From NCBI GenBank assembly GCA_024403275.1, contig JAKSSD010000007.1, positions 1 through 58,323 on the forward strand: a stretch of DNA of 58,323 bases. The letters run 5' to 3'. Of the stretch, positions 5,742 through 50,603 are shown piece after piece (position 1 is the first letter of the stretch; every line of letters starts with the position of its first letter). The notes under the pieces are model-generated. The model was not told the origin of the DNA and ran no database searches. It saw only the letters and a list, made by a program, of their open reading frames with translations. The stretch is from Lachnospiraceae bacterium. Lineage in GTDB: Bacteria > Bacillota > Clostridia > Lachnospirales > Lachnospiraceae. Both the position numbers and the translations under genes were made by a program.

Positions 5742-5770
5742 ATTATATAATTTTGCCGTCTAAAAATCAA
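5742..5770 (-). promoter_or_regulatory. rnpB promoter overlapping the upstream stop codon
   Basis: TTGATT (5765-5770) and a perfect TATAAT (5742-5747) are spaced by exactly 17 bases on the minus strand. The predicted start falls about 7 bases before the P1 helix of rnpB. The -35 hexamer overlaps the TGA stop codon (5767-5769) of the glycosyltransferase gene. Confidence 0.8.
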
Positions 5771-6795
5771 TGTGAGATTGATTTCCTTAGTCTCCTGTAT
5801 TTCCATAAAAGGCTATATTTTACATAGAAGACAAATGAATTTTTCATCAGTAAATCTACATATTTTTTCTGCTCCTCATCCATAAATCTGCCATAGGATG
5901 GATTGCTCCTAAAATCAGGGAAATACTCTATCATTTTTTTCTTCATATTCTTAACAAAAGAATACTTTTTGCCCTTTCTCATAAGCATGTATGAGAAAAG
6001 CGTATTTACCAAAAACATTCTGGTAAAATTATCTTCAATAACATCCTTGTATTCTTCAAAAAAACCACGTTTTTTTAATTCATTTACCATAGTCTCTGAT
6101 GCTGCCATACGATCAAGACATTTGCTCTTTGTTATCTCATGAACCGTTGATGTATCATGCTGATAGTAGTAATACATTGGCTCCTCAATATACTCAAATC
6201 TATTAACGTACATAGTCCATATAGGTCCTGCACAGTTATCCTCATAAAAGATTCCTTCAGGGAAAGTAAGCTTATTCTCTCTTATCATAGAGCCTCGATA
6301 CACCTTAGTTACCATACTTCCACTCTCACGAAGGTAATTCTTTCTTTTATCCACATCAAAAACACCACACTGCTCGACCTTGTTATTCTTAACAACCTGA
6401 CCAACCTCATATGTATGCTCATGAACTAATGAGTAATCACAACCTACTACATCCGCCCCTGTTTCCAAAGCCTTATTAATAAGTTTTTCATAGTAGTCAC
6501 TGCTAATCCAGTCATCAGAATCAATAAATCCAATCCACTCGCCCTTGGCTACCTTTAAACCTTCATTCTTAGCTCCACCCTGACGCTTATTTACAGTATA
6601 TGTAACTACCTTAAATTTATCAGGATATTTAGCCTCGTAGGCTTTAAGAATCTCTAAGGAATTATCTGTTGATGCATCATTTACCGCTATGATTTCATAA
6701 TCCTCTATGGTCTGATTAATCAATGATTCCAAGCAATATTCAAGTTTTCCATCTGCTGCCATATTATAGACAGGCACAATAATACTTAATCTCAT
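5767..6795 (-). CDS. Family 2 glycosyltransferase (GT-A)
   Basis: The 342-residue protein opens with the GT2 signature LSIIVPVYNMAADGKLEYCLESL. It then shows the nucleotide-sugar contact EIIAVNDASTDNS (about 35-47) and the metal-binding WIGFIDSDDW (about 88-97, DXD type). It is a soluble GT-A enzyme that should add a sugar to a lipid-linked or surface glycan; donor and acceptor cannot be told. It starts 3 bases after the polymerase-sialyltransferase fusion gene in the same operon, so it probably works on the same glycan. No terminator separates it from rnpB. Confidence 0.88.
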   Translation of the reverse strand: MRLSIIVPVYNMAADGKLEYCLESLINQTIEDYEIIAVNDASTDNSLEILKAYEAKYPDKFKVVTYTVNKRQGGAKNEGLKVAKGEWIGFIDSDDWISSDYYEKLINKALETGADVVGCDYSLVHEHTYEVGQVVKNNKVEQCGVFDVDKRKNYLRESGSMVTKVYRGSMIRENKLTFPEGIFYEDNCAGPIWTMYVNRFEYIEEPMYYYYQHDTSTVHEITKSKCLDRMAASETMVNELKKRGFFEEYKDVIEDNFTRMFLVNTLFSYMLMRKGKKYSFVKNMKKKMIEYFPDFRSNPSYGRFMDEEQKKYVDLLMKNSFVFYVKYSLLWKYRRLRKSISH

Positions 6796-6798
6796 ACT

Positions 6799-9387
6799 TT
6801 ATATTTTCTCATTCTGATTATGAATTTCTGGATCCTCGTATTTATCCATGAAATATCTGCCAAGCTTTACCTTTTCATCTGCAAATTTAATGCTTCCAAG
6901 CTCTGTAAATACACTGATAACCTTCTTGAAATGAACCTCCTCAAAGAAATTAAGAATTTCCATAGGAACCTTTCCTTCAAACTGAAGCACATCTGCAAAT
7001 ACTGTTGGATAATCAAGCTCATCTCTTGGATGAGGCTTAAGGAAAATAGTTCCCTCCTTGCCATACTCTGCAATCAAATCCCTGAAAATCTGCTCTCTTG
7101 TCTCTAAAGATGGAGTCAATGGCTCTGTAAGAATCAGGATATTATCCTTACCATTTTCTGTCTGACTGATTTCCTTTCTGATTCTGTCAATATCCTTAAC
7201 AAAAGCCTCTATAAGAAGTTTCTTTTCTTCGCTTGTAAGTCTTTCCTCAAGGTCTTTACGAGGAAGCTCTATATATTTTTTGAAAGGATATTTAACCTTA
7301 GACAAATCATTAAGTTCCATATCGATACAGTATTTGCTGTAGCCATCACAAATGAAAATAAGATTTAATTCCATACTAAAGAACTTCTTAAGTTTGAAAT
7401 GTCCACGGTTGTTATAAATAGCAAGATTGTATCCTGCAAGATAATCGAGTCCGTCTTCTACTGCATGATAAGGAATTCTCTTCTTGTTAAGATATACACC
7501 AATTGGGTCCGAGTCACAGAACACATAAACCTCATTGTATTCCTTGAAATTCACTGGCACGTACTTGCTCTCTAATTTAGCAAGCTTGCTTGTATATTTA
7601 ATTCTTTGAACCATGTTAGAAATAATATTTCCACGGTCCTTCTTTAGTTCCATAAGTTCAGGGAATTCTATATCCTTCTTCTCATCGAAATCTATTACTT
7701 CCTTGAAAACTTTAGTCTTAAGAAGTCTCTCTCCTATATTTCCAAAGTCATTTGACATTTTGCTAAGTACCATTGTGGCATTTCCACGTTCGCTTTCTGG
7801 AAGTGCAAATTCCTTAAGCATTGAAATATAGACATGATAGAAAGTATGCGCTACATAAATTCTTCCTTTTTTCTTCTTTTCAAAGGAATATGCATATCTT
7901 ACCTCATCCTGATTTACAAATTTACAAATTGCTGGGTAAATAAATACAAATCCGAAGAAGGTAATTGGATATAAGGTATTAGCACCTTCTCCCCACCATA
8001 CTCCAAACATCATTGCTAGCCAAAGAATAGGAAGCGCATTCATGATATTTTTCTTCTTAAGGTAAATGACAAGAAGTCTTACGTATCCTGCAAATAATAC
8101 AAGATTGTATAAGCTTCCGCCGATAATTCCGTATCTGTTAAGACTCCTTATGTACATATTATGTGGATTATATGCATAATATGAACCAACCTGAAGACCA
8201 CCAAGATTTTGTCCTGAGAATTTAACCTCTCTTAAGAAAGCCTCCCAGATCTGAATTCTGTATGAAGATATACAATCAAGGAAACTAAGCAGCGGATTAG
8301 TATAATAAGCCATAGATTCTTCAGCATACTCCTGATTAACCATAGCTCTGTAAATTCTAAATAAATTGTAGTGGATAAATGAAGTAGCGCCTTCTGCCTC
8401 ATAGACACTCTTCCAGTAAGCATATCTTTCGTGCGCAACTGTACTCATTCTCCAAAGAATAAATATTCCAAGGGCTGCAATTGCAAGTATTATCAAGCTT
8501 CTTATAAGAATCTTCACGAAGGAAGTATCTTTTCTTAGGAATAAGAAGCATGTAATAAACATAAATAATACGCCTGCCATGAGAGTTCTCGTATTGATTA
8601 TGTACATCATGAAACAGATAAATAAAAGACCTGCTACACTTACAAAGAATCTGAAATGCTTCCATCCATGCTTCTTAAGAGTGTAAACAATTGAGAATAT
8701 TGCAATTACCATAAGGCAGCAATGATACATGCCATAAGCGCCGATATTTACGAAGCTTCCGTAGTATCTTTCTCCATCGTATGGGAACATAATCAAAGAT
8801 TTACCATCCATATAAATCATTGAAAGCATAAAACCATCGCAGATTCTTATGCAAAAATTCTCCCACTCTTCAACCTTTAACGGAGTGATATAAAGAAGTC
8901 CAAAAGCGATAAGAATAACTACTGGCTCCAAAGTATTAAAGCTATAGTAAAAAGCAATCATAGTCATTGCTATAAACATGACAAAAATGTAAATATTTAC
9001 TTCTTTAAATTTGATAAGGTTTTTATATAAACAAATATCAACAAGAGTTAATATCACAAGAAACTGAAGGATTCCTGAATAGATATCTATCTGAATAAGG
9101 TCCGGTGAACCGGTATGCATTTTGATTTTGTAGATAAATAAAGGAATATCCACTATTACAGCTATTAGCGATGGGATATTAAAGATTTTCACTTTCCTCA
9201 AAATCATTATTACAAGAACAAATGCAATCATTGATTTACAGATTGCCACATCCTTAAATACCTGATAAGGAACTGAATCCATATCACAAAGAGCTTTGAC
9301 TGAATAAGCTATCAAAAGAGCCATTAAAACATTCAAAGCTATTTTTGCAAATTTATTATCATAAAATTTTTCTATTTTTGCTTTCAT
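6799..9387 (-). CDS. O-antigen polymerase/ligase-like membrane protein fused to a sialyltransferase-like domain
   Basis: The start at ATG 9387 is preferred. The GTG at 9393 overlaps the GGAG ribosome binding site, which is spaced 5 bases from the ATG. The protein has 862 residues. Residues about 1-490 form a Wzy/WaaL-type multi-spanning domain with a loop motif YNPHNMYIRSLNRYG ahead of the last membrane segments. Residues about 505-862 are soluble and begin RIYVAHTFYHVYISML. They carry the two motifs shared by bacterial sialyl- and polysialyltransferases (GT52/GT38-like GT-B folds), VEDGLDY (about 644) and the HP motif KPHPRD (about 786). The family would use CMP-nonulosonate. The opposite operon makes such a donor. 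The fusion is seen directly; its polymerase and transferase activities are inferred. Confidence 0.8.
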   Translation of the reverse strand: MKAKIEKFYDNKFAKIALNVLMALLIAYSVKALCDMDSVPYQVFKDVAICKSMIAFVLVIMILRKVKIFNIPSLIAVIVDIPLFIYKIKMHTGSPDLIQIDIYSGILQFLVILTLVDICLYKNLIKFKEVNIYIFVMFIAMTMIAFYYSFNTLEPVVILIAFGLLYITPLKVEEWENFCIRICDGFMLSMIYMDGKSLIMFPYDGERYYGSFVNIGAYGMYHCCLMVIAIFSIVYTLKKHGWKHFRFFVSVAGLLFICFMMYIINTRTLMAGVLFMFITCFLFLRKDTSFVKILIRSLIILAIAALGIFILWRMSTVAHERYAYWKSVYEAEGATSFIHYNLFRIYRAMVNQEYAEESMAYYTNPLLSFLDCISSYRIQIWEAFLREVKFSGQNLGGLQVGSYYAYNPHNMYIRSLNRYGIIGGSLYNLVLFAGYVRLLVIYLKKKNIMNALPILWLAMMFGVWWGEGANTLYPITFFGFVFIYPAICKFVNQDEVRYAYSFEKKKKGRIYVAHTFYHVYISMLKEFALPESERGNATMVLSKMSNDFGNIGERLLKTKVFKEVIDFDEKKDIEFPELMELKKDRGNIISNMVQRIKYTSKLAKLESKYVPVNFKEYNEVYVFCDSDPIGVYLNKKRIPYHAVEDGLDYLAGYNLAIYNNRGHFKLKKFFSMELNLIFICDGYSKYCIDMELNDLSKVKYPFKKYIELPRKDLEERLTSEEKKLLIEAFVKDIDRIRKEISQTENGKDNILILTEPLTPSLETREQIFRDLIAEYGKEGTIFLKPHPRDELDYPTVFADVLQFEGKVPMEILNFFEEVHFKKVISVFTELGSIKFADEKVKLGRYFMDKYEDPEIHNQNEKI

Positions 9388-9433
9388 TTTCACTCCGCCA
9401 TTAATCCCTAAAGGGCATAATTAAACATTTAAA

Positions 9434-9462
9434 ATTATAGCATAAATAACAAATGCTAACAA
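9434..9462 (-). promoter_or_regulatory. Promoter of the polymerase-sialyltransferase operon
   Basis: TTGTTA (9457-9462) and a perfect TATAAT (9434-9439), preceded by TGC (extended -10), are separated by 17 bases on the minus strand. The predicted start lies about 40 bases before the chosen ATG. Confidence 0.75.
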
Positions 9463-9584: not shown

Positions 9585-10634
9585 ATGAAAAAAGAAATCA
9601 AAATCGGATCAAAAGTATTATCCTCTACTTCCCCATATATTATTGCAGAAATGTCTGCTAATCATTTGATGGATTTAGAGAGGGCCAAAGCAATTATTCT
9701 TGCTGCCAGGGAATCTGGCGCAGACGCAATCAAGCTTCAGACCTACAGACCTGATACTATTACTTTAGATGTTCATAATGAAGAGTTTCTTTGCACTCCT
9801 GGAAGCCCCTGGGAAGGCATGAATCTCTTTGATTTATATAAAACCGCTTACACTCCTTGGGAGTGGCACGAGGAATTGTTTAACTACGCAAAAGAAATCG
9901 GCATTGACTGTTTCTCCACACCTTTCGACTTAACAGCTGTGGACTTCTTATCTCAGTTTGATATGCCTGCAGTTAAGATTGCTTCTTTTGAGATTAATGA
10001 CATTCCTCTCATTGAGAAGGCCGCAAAGCTTGGAAAGCCTATAATTATTTCAACAGGTATCGCTGAAATCGAAGATATTAATCTTGCCATTGAAACCTGC
10101 CATAAAGCTGGCAATGACCAGATTGTTTTGTTGAAATGCATATCTTCATACCCTGCTCCATACAGCGAATTCAATTTGAAGACTATTCCTGATATGGAGG
10201 ATAAATTTGACTGTGTAATCGGTATTTCCGATCATTCTATGGGAAGCATCATTCCTATTTCTGCAGTCACTCTTGGAGCTACAGTTATCGAGAAGCATAT
10301 GACACTCAAGAGAGCAGATGGCGGTCCTGATGGTTCATTCTCTATGGAGCCTCAGGAATTCAAGGCAATGGTTGATGATGTTCATAACATCTGTCAGGCT
10401 CTCGGTGAAGTTACCTACGAACTTACAGACAAGCAAAAGAATGCTCGTCCACGTTCCAGATCTTTGTACGTAAGTGCTGATATCAAAGCAGGCGAAAGCT
10501 TTAGTGAAAACAATATCAAATCAGTTCGTCCTGGCTATGGACTTCACACCAAATACTACTACGATATTCTTGGTAAGAAAGCAAAATGTGATTTAAAAAT
10601 GGGAACTGCCCTTAAGTGGGATTACATCGAATAG
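9585..10634 (+). CDS. pseI: Pseudaminic acid synthase
   Basis: The 349-residue NeuB/PseI/LegI-family enzyme condenses phosphoenolpyruvate with a 6-carbon diacetamido sugar to form a nonulosonic acid. Family motifs are IIAEMSANH (about 19-27), SGADAIKLQTYRPDTITL, CFSTPFD, VKIASFEIND, IISTGIAE, LKCISSYPAP, GISDHSMG and VIEKHMTLKR. A C-terminal SAF (antifreeze-like) domain follows (about 285-345, RSLYVSADIKAGE, VRPGYGLHTKYY). SANH, TYRPDTITL and the SAF sequence are closest to PseI rather than NeuB, judged by eye. GGAG lies 8-9 bases upstream of the ATG. It is the first gene of a five-gene operon whose last two genes complete the route to the CMP-activated sugar. Confidence 0.9.
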   Translation: MKKEIKIGSKVLSSTSPYIIAEMSANHLMDLERAKAIILAARESGADAIKLQTYRPDTITLDVHNEEFLCTPGSPWEGMNLFDLYKTAYTPWEWHEELFNYAKEIGIDCFSTPFDLTAVDFLSQFDMPAVKIASFEINDIPLIEKAAKLGKPIIISTGIAEIEDINLAIETCHKAGNDQIVLLKCISSYPAPYSEFNLKTIPDMEDKFDCVIGISDHSMGSIIPISAVTLGATVIEKHMTLKRADGGPDGSFSMEPQEFKAMVDDVHNICQALGEVTYELTDKQKNARPRSRSLYVSADIKAGESFSENNIKSVRPGYGLHTKYYYDILGKKAKCDLKMGTALKWDYIE

Positions 10635-10642
10635 GAGCATAC

Positions 10643-11593
10643 ATGAACGTTTTACTCTTAAGTATTGGAGCCAAGCACGCCCTGGTATCTTTTTTCAAAC
10701 AAAATAACAGTGGATTCGACAAAGTTGTCACTACTGACTGCAGCAAATATTCTGCTGGCTTATATAACAGTGATGCACACTACCTTGTCCCAAGAATGAG
10801 TGAGGATAACTATCTTCCTGCTCTTCTTGAAATCTGTGATAAGGAAAATATAGACGCAGTACTTCCATCTCAGGAAGATGAGCTTATATTGATTACTAAA
10901 AATCGTCATTTATTTGAAGATAAGAACGTAAAAATCGTATCTTCTGATGCCGCTTTAGTTGAACTTTGTCGTGACAAACTCGGTCTTTATGAATTTCTTT
11001 CATCTAAAGGAATTCCTTGTGTGCCTACAATTGACTGTTGCAATATCTCAACTGATTCAGTGGATTTACCCGCTTTCTTAAAACCTCGTTTTGGAGCAGG
11101 AAGTGTTGGTAACATTAAGATTAGCTCTCCTGTTCTTTTGGAAAGCTATATAAATGATGCCTCAACTCCTCTTATTCTTCAGCCCTTTATGAAGGCTAAA
11201 GAGTTTGGTGTAGACGTTTACGTAGATATGATAAATGGTGAAGTAACTGACATTTTTGTCAAAGAGAAAATCCGCATGCGTGCTGGTGAAACAGAGAAAT
11301 CTCTCTCTGTGAGAAATACTGACATTGAAGAAATCGTTAAGAATATAATCTCAGTACTTCCACTTAGAGGTCCTATTGATATGGATTTCTTCTTATACGA
11401 GGACAAATATTATTTACTCGAGATCAACCCTCGTTTTGGAGGTGGTTACCCACATGCAAACCTTTGTGGTATTAACTTTCCTCTTAATATTTCTAATAAT
11501 TTAAAAGGTCAGATTAATCCTGATAACATTGGCAACTACCAGACTGATACAGTTGCCCTTAAATATACAGAAACAATGCTTATGGAGAAATAA
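10643..11593 (+). CDS. ATP-grasp family ligase in the pseudaminate operon
   Basis: The start at 10643 (MNVLLLSIGAKHALV) has AGGAG 5 bases upstream. A longer frame from 10616 overlaps pseI and lacks a ribosome binding site. The 316-residue protein resembles carbamoyl-phosphate-synthase-like ATP-grasp proteins. It has an N-terminal Rossmann-like part with VLPSQEDELILI, then LCRDKLGLYEFLSSKGIPCVPT. The ATP-grasp core has FLKPRFGAGSVGN, and a Mg-binding end IDMDFFLYEDKYYLLEINPRFGGGYP. Such enzymes join a carboxylate to an amine or another nucleophile via an acyl-phosphate. It is not a known core pseudaminate step, so it may add an acyl or aminoacyl decoration. That role is inference. Confidence 0.8.
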   Translation: MNVLLLSIGAKHALVSFFKQNNSGFDKVVTTDCSKYSAGLYNSDAHYLVPRMSEDNYLPALLEICDKENIDAVLPSQEDELILITKNRHLFEDKNVKIVSSDAALVELCRDKLGLYEFLSSKGIPCVPTIDCCNISTDSVDLPAFLKPRFGAGSVGNIKISSPVLLESYINDASTPLILQPFMKAKEFGVDVYVDMINGEVTDIFVKEKIRMRAGETEKSLSVRNTDIEEIVKNIISVLPLRGPIDMDFFLYEDKYYLLEINPRFGGGYPHANLCGINFPLNISNNLKGQINPDNIGNYQTDTVALKYTETMLMEK

Positions 11594-12706
11594 ATGGAAA
11601 TCGGCAGTATTCTTGAATTTGATGACAAAGAATTATATATGGATAATCCTCAAAAGGGAATTGATGATTTCACTCTTCCATTTATGAATGGCGAGAAATA
11701 TAATATCAATTTCTATCAGAATGCAAGAAATGCCACTGAGGCTTTGTGTTTATACTTAAAGTCTCAGATTTCTTCTGTAATTCTTCCTGATTATGTATGT
11801 TCAACAGTTTCTGACTCAATCAACAGAGCTGGTATTGATGTTATTCGTTATCATCTTAATAAGGATTTCCAGTTTGATATCGAAGAGATTAATCAACTTA
11901 TGAAAGATTATAGTGAAGCAGACAAAAAAACTGTCCTATATATCGTACACTACTTTGGAAAGGCTTTAGACTCTTCTCTTGTAGCTTTAGCTAAAGAATG
12001 GATGTCAAAGGGCTATACTGTATTTGAAGATATTACTATGTCTATCTTCTCTAAGGATGATGGGAATTTTGGATTCGGCAATTATATTATCGGAAGCTTA
12101 AGAAAATGGCTTCCTATACCTGATGGAGGTTTTATTGCTTCTAAGAATCTGCTTCCAGAAGTACCTGAATTCGAAGATATCAGCAGATACTGCTATTATT
12201 CATATTTAGCTCAGGAAATGAAGCGCGATTACATAAGAGGTGGCGAAACAGATAATGTTCTCAAAGAAGATTATATGAGACACTATAAAAAATCAATCGA
12301 CTATCTTTTCTCAGATTATACTATTTATCCAGTTTCAGGAATTACTGAGAAATACCTGTCAAACTATTCTTGTGAAAATATTATAGCCAGGAGAAAGGCT
12401 AATTATAAATATTTCTATGAGAAGCTTGCGGACATTGATTTCGTTAAACCTTTAATCCCTGTATCTGATAATTACCTTCCATTTGGAATGATAGTAACTA
12501 CAAACAACAGAGACGAACTTCTATCCTTCCTTGTTTCAAAGGATGTTTATTGTAATGTGCACTGGCGCCTTGATTACGAAGGCTTAGGAGAAGAGGCTAA
12601 GCTTCTCTCTTCTTCTATAATGACAATCCCTTGCGACCAGCGCTATGGCACTAAGGATTTCGACAGAATTGTTGAAGTTTTAAAAGAATATAAATCTGGT
12701 AAATAA
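11594..12706 (+). CDS. DegT/DnrJ/EryC1-type PLP enzyme
   Basis: The 370-residue protein has the fold-type I layout of sugar aminotransferases. It has an N-terminal NARNATEALCLYL segment, ILPDYVCSTV, a PLP-contacting Asp in VFEDITMS (D146) and a likely Schiff-base lysine K171 in GSLRKWLPIPDGGF. In the pathway a DegT enzyme (PseC) makes the C4 amine, but PseC normally has a KN-x-TTGEGG type motif. This one differs, so it may do another transamination. The ATG follows the ATP-grasp stop codon directly, with its GGAG inside the preceding gene, which indicates tight coupling. Substrate unknown. Confidence 0.72.
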   Translation: MEIGSILEFDDKELYMDNPQKGIDDFTLPFMNGEKYNINFYQNARNATEALCLYLKSQISSVILPDYVCSTVSDSINRAGIDVIRYHLNKDFQFDIEEINQLMKDYSEADKKTVLYIVHYFGKALDSSLVALAKEWMSKGYTVFEDITMSIFSKDDGNFGFGNYIIGSLRKWLPIPDGGFIASKNLLPEVPEFEDISRYCYYSYLAQEMKRDYIRGGETDNVLKEDYMRHYKKSIDYLFSDYTIYPVSGITEKYLSNYSCENIIARRKANYKYFYEKLADIDFVKPLIPVSDNYLPFGMIVTTNNRDELLSFLVSKDVYCNVHWRLDYEGLGEEAKLLSSSIMTIPCDQRYGTKDFDRIVEVLKEYKSGK

Positions 12707-12708
12707 AT

Positions 12709-13755
12709 ATGATAGCTTTTAGAGTAGATATAAATAAGGATATCGCATCCGGTCATATAATGCGCTGCATGACAATTGCAGAAAAAGTCAGAGCAGCCGG
12801 TGAAGAAGTGTTATTCATCTCAGGCGATGAGTACTGCTCTTCTTTTCTTACTCCTAAATCCTTCAAATATGTTATTACCAATAGTCCTGCTGATAATTGG
12901 GACAGTGAAATCGACCTAATGAAATCAATCATTAAAGAGTATTCAATAAAATGCCTTTTTGTTGATTCTTATATCGTATCCGATACTTACCTCAAAGAAT
13001 TAAATACAGTTTGTAAAATCGCATTTATAGATGACTTCTTAACCAAGCAGCTTGATGTTTCCTTACTATTAGCACCAACCCAGTCAAGAAGTCTTGATTT
13101 TGTAAATGATTTATATAAAGATACAAATACCAAGCTTCTTCTTGGCAAAGACTATTTAATAATAAGGGATGAATTCCTGGATTCGAAAGATTGTGGCCCT
13201 GATGCTAAAGCTTCAAATATTAATTTCTCAGACAAGGGAATCTTAATCACTACAGGCGGTTCTGATAAATATCATTTTACCTTAGGAATCATTAAAGAGA
13301 TTCTTGCTAATAGTGCACTCTTAAAGAATAAGTATTTCGTTATTATTGGTTCCTTAAATGATGATTACGATGAAATAAAAGCACTTGTAAAGGATTGTGA
13401 TTCCTTCGTGCTTCTTAAGAATATTTCCAATATGGGATATTATATGCATAATAGTTTCTATGCTATTTCAGCAGGTGGAAATACTGTATATGAACTACTC
13501 TGTTGCAAGGTCGCTCTATCCACAATCGCTTTATCTGACGATCAGGTAGCTCTTGGAAAACGACTTGCAAGTATGAATATCCTTAACTACGAGGGAGATT
13601 GCAGACAAGATACCAAAGAAGTAATTGCTAAATGTATTAATACCCTGGAAGATATTAGTCAAAACGGAATTAATAGTAAAATGCAAAGTGCTGTTGAAGC
13701 TTATACAGATGGACTTGGTGCCACAAGAATTGCCAAAGCCCTTATTGAATTATAA
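12709..13755 (+). CDS. pseG: UDP-sugar hydrolase PseG-like
   Basis: The 348-residue protein resembles PseG, a GT-B (MurG-like) enzyme that removes UDP from the 2,4-diacetamido sugar before PseI acts. The N-terminus IAFRVDINKDIASGHIMRCMTIAE contains the catalytic-type GHIMR histidine (H17). Later segments are LFVDSY, FIDDF, LLGKDYLIIRDEF, ILITTGGSDKYH and the donor-binding YAISAGGNTVYELLCC. It starts 2 bases after the DegT gene. It is somewhat longer than the roughly 275-residue Campylobacter enzyme, comparable to other Firmicute versions. The match rests on motifs and context. Confidence 0.83.
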   Translation: MIAFRVDINKDIASGHIMRCMTIAEKVRAAGEEVLFISGDEYCSSFLTPKSFKYVITNSPADNWDSEIDLMKSIIKEYSIKCLFVDSYIVSDTYLKELNTVCKIAFIDDFLTKQLDVSLLLAPTQSRSLDFVNDLYKDTNTKLLLGKDYLIIRDEFLDSKDCGPDAKASNINFSDKGILITTGGSDKYHFTLGIIKEILANSALLKNKYFVIIGSLNDDYDEIKALVKDCDSFVLLKNISNMGYYMHNSFYAISAGGNTVYELLCCKVALSTIALSDDQVALGKRLASMNILNYEGDCRQDTKEVIAKCINTLEDISQNGINSKMQSAVEAYTDGLGATRIAKALIEL

Positions 13756-13767
13756 AAAGGAGTATTT

Positions 13768-14463
13768 ATGGAAAACGCTATAGTTATTATTCCTGCCCGT
13801 GGTGGCAGCCAAAGAATACCAAAGAAAAACATCAAATCCTTCCTTGGTAAGCCTATTATTTCATACGTAATTGAAACTGCATTAAAATCAGGAATCTGCG
13901 ATGAAGTAATGGTCTCTACAGACAGTGAAGAAATCGCCAATATTGCTAAACAATATGGTGCAAATATACCATTTATGCGAGATGCATCCCTGGCCGATGG
14001 ATATACAACCACCGATGCAGTTATCATCGATACAATCAATCGTTACAAGGCAATGGGCAGAGAATTTAAATACATCATCTGCATGTATCCTACTGCTCCA
14101 TTTGTAACAGTAGAGCATCTCAAGGAAGCTATTTCTTTAATGGATAAACACCAGGCTAAAGAAGTTAAAATGTTAGCCGAATTCTCATTCCCACCACAGC
14201 GAGGAATGATTATTGACGAAAATGGTTATGCTGAATATAAATACAAAGAATATGCCAACACTCGTTCTCAGGACTTAAGTCCAATCTACCACGATGTTGG
14301 CCAGTTATATGTTTATGATACAAAGCAGTTTCTTGAATCTAATGGTTCAATAGTAGATGGTGTTGTTCCTCTTTTGGTAGAAGAAAAAGATGTCCAGGAC
14401 ATCGACAATGAGCAGGACTGGATTATGGCTGAACTTAAATATAAGGTTCTTAATAATCTTTAA
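13768..14463 (+). CDS. pseF: CMP-pseudaminic acid cytidylyltransferase
   Basis: The 231-residue NeuA/PseF-family enzyme activates the nonulosonic acid with CTP. It opens with the nucleotide-binding IIPARGGSQRIPKKNIKSF, then has VMVSTDSEEIANIA, YPTAPFV and LAEFSFPPQRGM. The PseF-like RSQDLSPIYHDVGQLYVYD follows near 170-190. The last three features are typical of PseF rather than sialic acid NeuA. AAGGAG precedes the ATG. It ends the operon and is followed by a strong terminator. The CMP-sugar made here is the expected donor for the sialyltransferase-like domain encoded on the opposite strand. Confidence 0.9.
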   Translation: MENAIVIIPARGGSQRIPKKNIKSFLGKPIISYVIETALKSGICDEVMVSTDSEEIANIAKQYGANIPFMRDASLADGYTTTDAVIIDTINRYKAMGREFKYIICMYPTAPFVTVEHLKEAISLMDKHQAKEVKMLAEFSFPPQRGMIIDENGYAEYKYKEYANTRSQDLSPIYHDVGQLYVYDTKQFLESNGSIVDGVVPLLVEEKDVQDIDNEQDWIMAELKYKVLNNL

Positions 14464-47540: not shown

Positions 47541-50500
47541 CTATTTCTTATTAATATGGATATTTGTTAATGCACACTGGTCGCCTGTGAGATAGAAATA
47601 AATATTTGAAACGTCATCTGGAAGTGTCGTTTTATTATTAGTTTCTAATCCACTATTTTCAACCAGTACCTCTATTATATTGTCCTTTCTTGATATTGAC
47701 AGTTTACAGTCTACACCCTCTTTGTTATTTTGTTTCCAAACGCTCCAGTTTCCAAATTTTTCACTCCTTGTTACAAGTGATTCATTTGGCAAATCGGAAT
47801 TATCACACCAGACCTCACCATCAAGTCGTACAAATACAATCTCTCTAAAGTTTTTACCACCAATTTTACCATCATCTGATGTAAACAAAGCAACAATCGG
47901 GCAATGCCATACTCTTCTTGAAGAAGGAAGACTTAATGTATGGAAACTAACATCTATGTCACTATCAACTTCCACTATTTCTGAATGACTTGTTATCCAT
48001 CCATCTATCTGAACATTAGGAATATCTCCTGATGGTCCACCGATATATGTTATCTTATCAGCAATACGTGAAATATAATTCTTTTCTACTGCATCTTCTG
48101 AAATATCAACCTTAAGAATATCTAATTTACAGAATTCTCCAGTTAACGCAAGGTAAACATATCTTGATGCATCATATAAAGCAAAAGTCATTTCATCAAT
48201 TTGATTGTCTGTTGTGATTCTAACGAATAAATGATCTTCCTCTTTTACCATGAAAACTTCAGCAGTATAGAGCTTATTACAGTCTAATTGGAGTAGTACA
48301 TCATTATTTGAATTCTGAGTAAATTTACGTACATAATCAGGATAAATAGTTCCATTCAAATCTACACTGGCAAACTCAATAAAATCCATTTCTCCAGCTA
48401 ACAAACTATCCTCAAGATAATATCTGGCATCTGCTGAGTCATAGAAAAGAATTGTTGGCTGACCACCATTTCTTAAAGGCTCATACTGGATTTTAATTGA
48501 TACTGGTTTATCTGATATTCTAATGCCTGAAGAAACCTTTGATTTATAATCATCAAATTTATATGAAAGATCCGCTCCAAATACTTCCTCTGTTCGGCCT
48601 TCCCTCATCTTATATTCTTCATCCTTATCAAGAAGATTAATCATAATTCTGGCATATTCTGGATCAAACTGAGTACCCATTCCTTTAATCAGTTCTTCTC
48701 GAACATACATCTGAGGTATTATTTCACGGTAACTACGCATTGAAGTCATCGCATCATATGCATCTGCAACGGCAATAATTCTTGCTATTCTAGGAATATC
48801 ATCTGCTTTTAGTTTCTCTGGATAACCCTTTCCATCATATCTCTCATGATGATAACGAGCGCCTATACTAAGCGAAGGAGACATTACAATCTTTGATAGA
48901 ATCTGGCCACCCAATCCCGGATGCAGCTTAATAACAGCAAACTCCTCATCTGTAAGCTTACCCTTTTTATTAATAATTCTGTCATCAATTCCTATCTTAC
49001 CAACGTCATGAAGTAAACCAGCAAGATACACCTCATCGCACTCTTTTTCAGACATTCCAGCTTCTTTTGCTATCTCTCTTGAATATTTGGCTACTCTGTT
49101 TGAATGACCATTGGTATATGAATCCTTAGCGTCGACTGCAGTAGCTAATGCCTCTACCGTCTGTCTTAAGAACTCATCTGCCTGCTCCTGAATTCTGATG
49201 GTTTTATTATAATCATCAATATTTCTCTGATATTTCTTTAAGGTCCTGTTAAGACGTCCTGAAAATTCAATATATTCTCTTCTTTTAAATGCGCCCCTTT
49301 TATATCCCATAATCATATATCCGGCAACGCAATCATCAACCTTCAAAGATTTAAATACATAAGTTTTTCCTATGCCATCCTCAACATATCCCAACAACAT
49401 ATCCTTTGTATTTATTGTGTTATCAGAATATATTACACCACCTGTTCTTGCACCGATTACATCCATTACAGATTCAAAGAAACTCTCCTGGTGAACATCT
49501 TCTGGAACATTCATATAAGCAAGCTTTTTGTACTGCGGATTAACATATATATGAAAATTTTCTGTTTCTTCACCTGTAGACGAGAAAAAATCCTCGTTAA
49601 TACTATTATGTATATCTTCAAATTTTTCATTTGACATAATACACATATCAAGGTGTAACTCTCTTCCTAACAAAGTATCTGAGAAAAAGCGTTCAGACCA
49701 CCAAATTCTACCTATTTTCTTTCTCAATTCCGTCTCATCATTGCAATCCATGCATCCACAGCTCTCACCAGGAATCGCAACACAAGGTACTACACTCTTT
49801 TTGATAGATTTCTTATCTGTTACCAGTTCTGTAATAAGCTTCGCACTTTCACTACCCTGTTTATAATATCCCTGATCAACAGTAGCCAAAGAAGGGTAAC
49901 TTACCTTACCATCACTTAGATTATCAAAGCCTGTAACAATTACATCTTCTGGAATTCTGTAACCAAGCTGCTCTAAAAACAGTACTACGAACATAGCCAT
50001 CTGGTCGTTAGCACAAATAAAAGCATCTGGTAATTTCTCTTTCTTATCACGATAATGTTCACACACATATTGTCTAATAAGATTTACTTCCCAACATGCA
50101 TAAAAAATATTTTCATCTTTTAAAAAATGCCCGTGTGCTTCAAGAGTTTCTTTTACCATCTGCATTCTGGCATTTGAATCTTCATTATCCTCTGAACCAG
50201 CAATATAAATAACATCTTTTACGTCATGTTTTTCTATTAAATGCTCACATAAGTTTTTCATTCCGATATTATTATCTATCGTAACAGTAGAAACCCCATC
50301 AGCCTCAGTTCCCTGAAGTATAACTGGTACCCCTGCCTGCTTGCATTTATTTATAATTTTAGAAACATCCGATTTGATGCCAGAGCCAAATATTATAGCA
50401 GCATCGAAGAAGGACATATCTGCCAATGAATATATAGAGTCTTCTGCTTCATTCTTTTTCACACCATCCACTGAACCAGAATATGAAGTGAAGACAAAAA

Positions 50501-50603
50501 GATCGATGTCATCGTCTGAAAAATAACCATTAAATCCATCTATAAATTTATCAATATTCTCTGCATTCCACCCATTTACAAATAAAGCAACTTTTGCCTT
50601 CAT
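47541..50603 (-). CDS. Sugar-sensor HD-GYP c-di-GMP phosphodiesterase with duplicated beta-rich tail
   Basis: The 1020-residue protein begins with a LacI/periplasmic-binding-type domain (about 1-290; VIVTGFDNLSDGKVSYPSLATVDQ) without a DNA-binding helix-turn-helix or signal peptide, so it is cytosolic. A Cys-rich patch (CVAIPGESCGCMDC) and a GAF-like region (about 300-450) follow. A complete HD-GYP domain (about 485-665) has GHSNRVAKYSR, LLHDVGKIGI, HPGLGGQIL, YHHERYDGKGYPE and ADAYDAMTS. The C-terminus has two related beta-rich units ending ALTGEFCKLDILKV (about 830) and YLTGDQCALTNIHI (about 1015), probably ligand-binding sandwiches. It should hydrolyse c-di-GMP under control of a sugar-like ligand. 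First gene of the operon. Confidence 0.88.
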   Translation of the reverse strand: MKAKVALFVNGWNAENIDKFIDGFNGYFSDDDIDLFVFTSYSGSVDGVKKNEAEDSIYSLADMSFFDAAIIFGSGIKSDVSKIINKCKQAGVPVILQGTEADGVSTVTIDNNIGMKNLCEHLIEKHDVKDVIYIAGSEDNEDSNARMQMVKETLEAHGHFLKDENIFYACWEVNLIRQYVCEHYRDKKEKLPDAFICANDQMAMFVVLFLEQLGYRIPEDVIVTGFDNLSDGKVSYPSLATVDQGYYKQGSESAKLITELVTDKKSIKKSVVPCVAIPGESCGCMDCNDETELRKKIGRIWWSERFFSDTLLGRELHLDMCIMSNEKFEDIHNSINEDFFSSTGEETENFHIYVNPQYKKLAYMNVPEDVHQESFFESVMDVIGARTGGVIYSDNTINTKDMLLGYVEDGIGKTYVFKSLKVDDCVAGYMIMGYKRGAFKRREYIEFSGRLNRTLKKYQRNIDDYNKTIRIQEQADEFLRQTVEALATAVDAKDSYTNGHSNRVAKYSREIAKEAGMSEKECDEVYLAGLLHDVGKIGIDDRIINKKGKLTDEEFAVIKLHPGLGGQILSKIVMSPSLSIGARYHHERYDGKGYPEKLKADDIPRIARIIAVADAYDAMTSMRSYREIIPQMYVREELIKGMGTQFDPEYARIMINLLDKDEEYKMREGRTEEVFGADLSYKFDDYKSKVSSGIRISDKPVSIKIQYEPLRNGGQPTILFYDSADARYYLEDSLLAGEMDFIEFASVDLNGTIYPDYVRKFTQNSNNDVLLQLDCNKLYTAEVFMVKEEDHLFVRITTDNQIDEMTFALYDASRYVYLALTGEFCKLDILKVDISEDAVEKNYISRIADKITYIGGPSGDIPNVQIDGWITSHSEIVEVDSDIDVSFHTLSLPSSRRVWHCPIVALFTSDDGKIGGKNFREIVFVRLDGEVWCDNSDLPNESLVTRSEKFGNWSVWKQNNKEGVDCKLSISRKDNIIEVLVENSGLETNNKTTLPDDVSNIYFYLTGDQCALTNIHINKK

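Follow-up and report, generated by a model that had tools for sequence, protein, structure and literature searches.

Wzy-dependent synthesis requires that the last transferase in the cytosol and the polymerase on the outside work with the same sugar, and how this match is secured is hard to test, the proteins being separate. The locus described here raises the question of what a single chain holding both activities would do. It lies in a stretch of 58,323 nucleotides (contig JAKSSD010000007.1 of the Lachnospiraceae bacterium assembly GCA_024403275.1), all of which we call the window, and consists of one open frame on the reverse strand at 6799..9387, with 862 codons and a stop at 6799-6801; translation may start at the ATG at 9387 (862 residues) or at a GTG at 9393 (864 residues). 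The first-pass annotation had described one 862-residue frame with PHN, EDG and KPHPRD motifs, joining a Wzy/WaaL-like membrane protein to a sialyltransferase-like domain. The frame and all three motifs are present as described, and the fusion observation as a whole is confirmed. Its interpretation is partly supported, since both domain assignments stand at the level of sequence profiles while the Wzy/WaaL side never passes the Pfam cut-off. We somewhat favour the reading, with a probability of roughly 0.55, that the protein is a polymerase and a nonulosonic-acid transferase acting on both faces of the membrane. The features on which the argument draws are as follows.

5767..6795, reverse strand: GT2 glycosyltransferase (Pfam), directly downstream of the fusion gene
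6799..9387, reverse strand: fusion gene of 862 codons and a stop; a GTG at 9393 may serve as the start instead
6802..7887, reverse strand: polysialyltransferase-like (PF07388) domain, residues 501-862; homologous to standalone genes from about residue 505 on
7021..7038, reverse strand: KPHPRD codons (HP motif), residues 784-789; HPRD in 22/22 members
7450..7458, reverse strand: EDG codons, residues 644-646; 22/22 members
7867..7923, reverse strand: linker, about residues 489-507, in which the start codon of the standalone transferase is lost (codon inspection)
7888..9387, reverse strand: Wzy/WaaL-like membrane domain, residues 1-500 (Wzy_C below cut-off; R377, H409 and G420 kept in 15/15; hydropathy)
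8158..8166, reverse strand: PHN codons, residues 408-410, in a long loop between predicted helices; H409 in 15/15
9434..9462, reverse strand: TTGTTA-17-TATAAT, a promoter-like site ahead of the fusion gene, suggestive only
9585..10634, forward strand: pseI, divergent, encoding pseudaminic acid synthase (490 bits with TIGR03586, over cut-off)
10616..11593, forward strand: ATP-grasp protein of the pse operon (NF009406 over cut-off; PF02655)
11594..12706, forward strand: DegT-like protein, possible aminotransferase (over the cut-off of PF01041 at E 1.7e-7; no more than 16.5 bits with the PseC model)
12709..13755, forward strand: pseG, UDP-sugar hydrolase (TIGR03590 over cut-off)
13768..14463, forward strand: pseF, CMP transfer to nonulosonic acid (TIGR03584 over cut-off)

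Promoter-like sites show no excess over shuffled sequence in this region (16 found, 17.6 expected). The fusion protein matched no NCBIfam family, and searches of the PDB with the protein and with both domain profiles gave no meaningful sequence match.

Profile matches and conservation suggest that the C-terminal domain is sialyltransferase-like and a putative nonulosonic-acid transferase. PF07388 (alpha-2,8-polysialyltransferase) is matched over the Pfam cut-off at residues 518-802 (32.2 against 23.3 bits, E 1.1e-7), and the domain by itself scores 36.3 bits. EDG and HPRD are each conserved in 22/22 sequences when the domain is aligned with 21 chosen relatives that are 48-63% identical to it. 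Of these 22 members 21 match PF07388 and 16 match PF07922 (GT52), the best E-values being 2.1e-9 for PF07388 against 1.2e-16 for PF07922, and we place the aligned family between PF07388/GT38 and PF07922/GT52. With those families the window domain has in common its above-cut-off PF07388 match and the D/E-D/E-G and HP motifs; it differs from GT38/GT52 sialyltransferases in that the adjoining pathway is one for pseudaminate and not for Neu5Ac, its first gene being identified by NCBIfam as PseI rather than NeuB. In Neisseria both sialyltransferase motifs matter for catalysis and for binding of CMP-Neu5Ac (PMC2169525, in excerpt). By themselves, however, the EDG and HP motifs are weak evidence for a sialyltransferase, because the E/D-E/D-G...HP pair with a spacing of 80-200 residues occurs in 2 of the 40 window ORFs of at least 150 amino acids, the second being a 1020-residue ORF at 47541-50603, and because Bacillus subtilis SpsB carries both motifs yet is reported to be dispensable for the transfer of legionaminic acid (excerpt of PMC7439481); the assignment made here draws on the profile match and on conservation, not on the short motifs. 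A tree groups the window transferase domain with those of loci L077, L095, L078, L082 and L112 (99/97).

The N-terminal domain matches Wzy_C (PF04932) at residues 253-427, at 19.8 against a cut-off of 31.7 bits (E 7e-4) for the whole protein and at 19.8 to 23.6 bits across all scans of the window protein (E 4.7e-4 for the domain). Because these scores lie below the cut-off, we file the domain by profile as Wzy/WaaL-like and not as a member of the family. When it is aligned with 14 chosen relatives, 19-27% identical to it, S197, P202, R377, H409 and G420 are identical in 15/15 sequences and R207 in 14/15, and Wzy_C is found at E<=0.1 in 8 of the 15. The domain resembles the Wzy/WaaL/PglS group (PF04932, GT-C B fold) in its many predicted membrane helices, its weak Wzy_C match and a predicted long loop with conserved histidine and arginine residues; it departs from that group in falling below the Pfam cut-off and in carrying a fused enzyme of cytosolic type. 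For the related PglS, the available part of the source names a histidine in the matching region as the proposed catalytic residue and proposes that arginines handle the diphosphate (PMC12800693). Two hydropathy scans gave 11 membrane segments in residues 1-500; the further helices added by eye, one around 45-64 that is strong on one scale, one around 425-443 and a weak one around 177-195, bring the total to 13-14. With 14 helices the distribution of charges fits an inside location of both termini and an outside location of H409 and R377, whereas with 13 it does not; a cytosolic C-terminus requires an even number of helices and thus depends on those added by eye, one of them weak. Apart from the N-terminal half, its own genome has no strong match to the membrane family, and a second, weak Wzy_C match there (C108) was rejected as a GtrII-like glucosyltransferase.

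The statement that the donor pathway is encoded by the divergent operon is upheld, PseI, PseG and PseF all scoring over their NCBIfam cut-offs, and because the operon encodes these three enzymes a CMP-pseudaminate-type donor is likely to be made next door. No PseH acetyltransferase match was seen among the scanned genes of the operon. Positions 10616-12706 hold the ATP-grasp gene and the weak DegT-like gene, and the sugar may bear an unusual N-substituent; flagellin modification in Shewanella likewise involves an ATP-grasp gene (PMC3765264, in excerpt). Elsewhere in the genome, PseB-like pieces occur at two contig ends together with one full-length dehydratase-like frame, none of them over the PseB cut-off; the two pieces, at the ends of G000:C112 and G000:C154, are probably one gene split by the assembly. 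The genome also encodes one Polysacc_synt (flippase-type) protein over cut-off, and a flagellin gene (L130:2116-6018, on G000:C125) adjoins LicD-family and polysaccharide pyruvyl transferase genes. Neither a flippase nor a further polysaccharide cluster was found among the scanned neighbours of the fusion gene, the others of which are housekeeping genes: indolepyruvate oxidoreductase, a PcrA-like helicase, ATPases that we label RadA-like and ClpC-like from our reading of their Pfam matches, and purD. Among 35 loci of at least 9 kb that carry a strong transferase copy, 18 have pse genes in the stretch that was fetched and 17 have a GT2 ortholog (E<1e-90).

According to the model that we favour, a natural gene fusion has brought an outer-face Wzy-type polymerase and a cytosolic nonulosonic-acid transferase into one protein. 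The C-terminal domain would lie in the cytosol, some 16-20 residues past the last helix, and would use CMP-pseudaminate, or a derivative, from the divergent operon to add a nonulosonic acid to a repeat unit carried on undecaprenyl diphosphate, possibly in concert with the GT2 enzyme encoded next to it. A flippase encoded elsewhere would then flip the lipid-linked unit, and the N-terminal domain, with H409 and R377 in an outer loop, would use it to lengthen the chain. If the nonulosonic acid is added last, it would be the residue that the polymerase links to the growing chain. The host is, we presume, a bacterium in which LPS is not expected, unlike Brucella, the organism that supplies the one described precedent for what is a rare layout. 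Brucella WadA is a bifunctional glycosyltransferase/O-antigen ligase in one membrane protein, whose transferase domain adds a sugar on which the ligase domain then works at the other face, as set out in the available part of the source (PMC9938171); the first-pass annotation, which knew of no enzyme with such a layout, had thus overlooked a described one with the opposite domain order. WadA and the window protein each combine a soluble glycosyltransferase, cytosolic in WadA, with a Wzy/WaaL-type membrane domain in one chain, with an active site proposed for each face of the membrane, and in this sense the window protein has the WadA-type layout, the likeness being one of layout and the cytosolic side of its transferase being a prediction. 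The order is reversed, however, with the transferase of WadA (1-266) preceding its ligase (267-703) while the window protein has its membrane domain first, and WadA attaches glucose to the core of LPS and acts as a ligase for O-antigen, whereas the window protein has a sialyltransferase-like domain (PMC9938171, in excerpt). As has been proposed for WadA, the fusion would bind the polymerase to the very sugar on which it depends. The literature retrieved was scant and contained no report of a sialyltransferase fused to a protein of Wzy or WaaL type, a weak negative.

Unfused relatives of the two domains bear on whether the two functions are linked. A strong transferase copy occurs in 49 family genomes, and a membrane-profile match in 42 of these; in 17/49 the transferase and a Wzy-like gene lie 7.5-22.6 kb apart, that is, within 23 kb, against about 1.2 expected within 31 kb under uniform placement, where the 31 kb limit was set after the distances had been seen and the null ignores the natural clustering of polysaccharide genes. 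Counting a further segment of the gene in G485, which lies 30.5 kb away, gives 18/49 within 31 kb, and still 17 within 23 kb. The 49 omit second-copy transferase matches (G706, G451) and weak transferase-like matches with E above 1e-70 (for example G524, G502, G689:C4, G685, G433, G619 and G718:C31). Ten such Wzy-like ORFs were scanned, nine of them from the 17 genomes and the tenth from G270, where the distance is 44 kb; some are truncated by the end of the locus. Each gives a weak Wzy_C match, with E between 6e-6 and 0.03, and none passes the cut-off. In G019 the transferase and an unfused Wzy-like relative are 19 kb apart, and G546 carries the same pse-transferase-GT2 operon (L108) and, on a different contig, a membrane domain (L102) that is sister to that of the window protein (96/97, both on long branches) and sits in a glycosyltransferase cluster.

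The alternative that survives best, though we consider it unlikely, is that the N-terminal domain acts as a ligase or as an oligosaccharyltransferase of the PglL/PglS kind and, instead of polymerising the nonulosonate glycan, would move it, once capped by the transferase domain, from lipid to protein or to a wall polymer. Wzy_C covers related polymerases, ligases and O-oligosaccharyltransferases alike (PMC12800693, in excerpt), the locus is a small islet with no polysaccharide cluster among its scanned neighbours, and four flagellin-like genes in the genome provide candidate protein acceptors; however, no acceptor is known, the closest relatives of the membrane domain (L102, G019) lie in glycosyltransferase clusters, and unfused transferases are located near Wzy-like genes. 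It is improbable that only the transferase domain is functional and that the Wzy-like part serves to anchor it in the membrane or is a remnant in decay. Standalone relatives have no predicted membrane segments, so that an anchor would be a gain, and the uniqueness of the N-terminal half within its genome fits such a reading, but R207, R377, H409 and glycines are kept and the frame is open throughout.

Less probable again is a Maf-like role, in which the transferase family would put nonulosonic acid directly onto flagellin and the fusion would exist for another reason. Flagellins are present, the module sits among housekeeping genes in both the window and L095, and the role would be vacant if the genome has no Maf, as the lack of a PF01973 match would have it; that search, however, was positive only in 4 archaea among 14 controls and may miss bacterial Maf proteins. 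Against this reading, the genes of the relatives are clustered with glycosyltransferases, ABC exporters or MatE and lie near Wzy-like genes.

All of these readings take the fusion to be real, and comparison with L077 (G002) bears directly on this. There the same five pse genes diverge from the transferase and GT2 genes, and only the Wzy piece is absent; BLASTN aligns the two loci over 1047 bases toward PseI (71%) and over 2100 toward the transferase and GT2 (65%), similarity restarting at about residue 505, the edge of the domain. Standalone transferases start with M-x-K-x-GR or similar, and in the fusion that methionine is replaced, with no in-frame ATG, GTG or TTG codon from residue 471 to 522. 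The two halves are alike in GC content (33.0% and 34.6%), and the DNA of the fusion matches only itself across its own genome (2.47 Mb, 179 contigs). Because the Wzy piece is all that the syntenic L077 is missing, and because the fusion has lost the start codon of the standalone gene, a true gene fusion appears likelier than an assembly chimera. That a chimera or a base error joined two genes is the most improbable reading of all, the 179-contig genome and the lack of a second case in the searched genomes speaking for it, but synteny with L077 on both flanks of the Wzy piece requiring two wrong joins, one of them in frame, exactly at the domain edge and with loss of the start codon.

The pairing is a singleton, seen in one case, and in relatives the two parts are split, which the first-pass annotation had named as grounds for refuting its reading. 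Within the genus (31 genomes) a whole, separate transferase gene occurs in 25 others, fragments at contig ends in 2 and none in 3; standalone frames have 357-403 residues, and no fusion to Wzy was found in the 30 other genomes. Any transferase match was seen in 56/397 genomes of a family sample and 41/392 of an order sample, the samples of genus, family and order overlapping, and no other match in either covers both halves. A phylum sample gave PF07388 matches in 12/398 genomes, the window frame (873) being by far the longest and the next having 560, 539 and 490 residues. Scanning public genomes with the fusion protein returned one relative, L095, with the transferase alone, in a search by six exact peptide patterns that would miss most relatives. 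No copy of the fusion was found in phages or plasmids, and none of 25 pattern matches to transferase relatives in viral contigs was confirmed.

Fusions are nevertheless common on both the Wzy-like and the transferase side, this pairing having been seen once. In a survey of 19 membrane-family ORFs from 17 fetched stretches of the genus, with the last helix placed by crude hydropathy, 10 extend at least 140 residues beyond it, and Pfam names the partner in four. L061:3700-6483 and L065:4553-7561 (927 and 1002 amino acids) join a Wzy-like domain to a DUF1972 glycosyltransferase, and L060:3366-7586 and L064:4803-9098 (1406 and 1431 amino acids) join one to an LVIVD/beta-propeller; like the window protein these four carry a C-terminal partner beyond the last helix, but theirs is a DUF1972 glycosyltransferase or a propeller where the window protein has a sialyltransferase-like domain. 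The propeller is a separate gene adjoining a Wzy-like gene in L072 and L073. Transferases of the PF07388/PF07922 type are fused to GT4 (L096:8286-10697) and GT2 (L099:5381-7315), and one stands behind an N-terminal part with no assigned family (L097:6380-9544). Among the pse genes of relatives, DegT-like, PseG and PseF matches share a single 991-residue frame (L101:2744-5719), DegT-like and PseG matches one of 809 residues (L092:469-2898), and PseI and a formyltransferase domain one of 537 residues (L086:7357-8970).

Tentatively, then, the Wzy-type polymerases of Lachnospiraceae might serve as a chassis for partners fused after the last helix, so that the polymerase would be tied to an enzyme setting, or a protein handling, its own substrate, with the window protein as the first polymerase known to have its own nonulosonic-acid transferase. 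Equally tentative is the range of such partners, which could include the nonulosonate transferase, the DUF1972 glycosyltransferase and the beta-propellers, on the cytosolic or the outer side. A natural fusion, an unfused syntenic relative and the other fusions of the genus together offer a direct handle on how transferase and polymerase are matched. From the fusion one would learn with which polymerase a given transferase pairs; it predicts that the residue at the site of polymerisation is a nonulosonic acid, and it would place pseudaminate-type sugars in the surface polymers of the Lachnospiraceae, a common gut-type group of Firmicutes.
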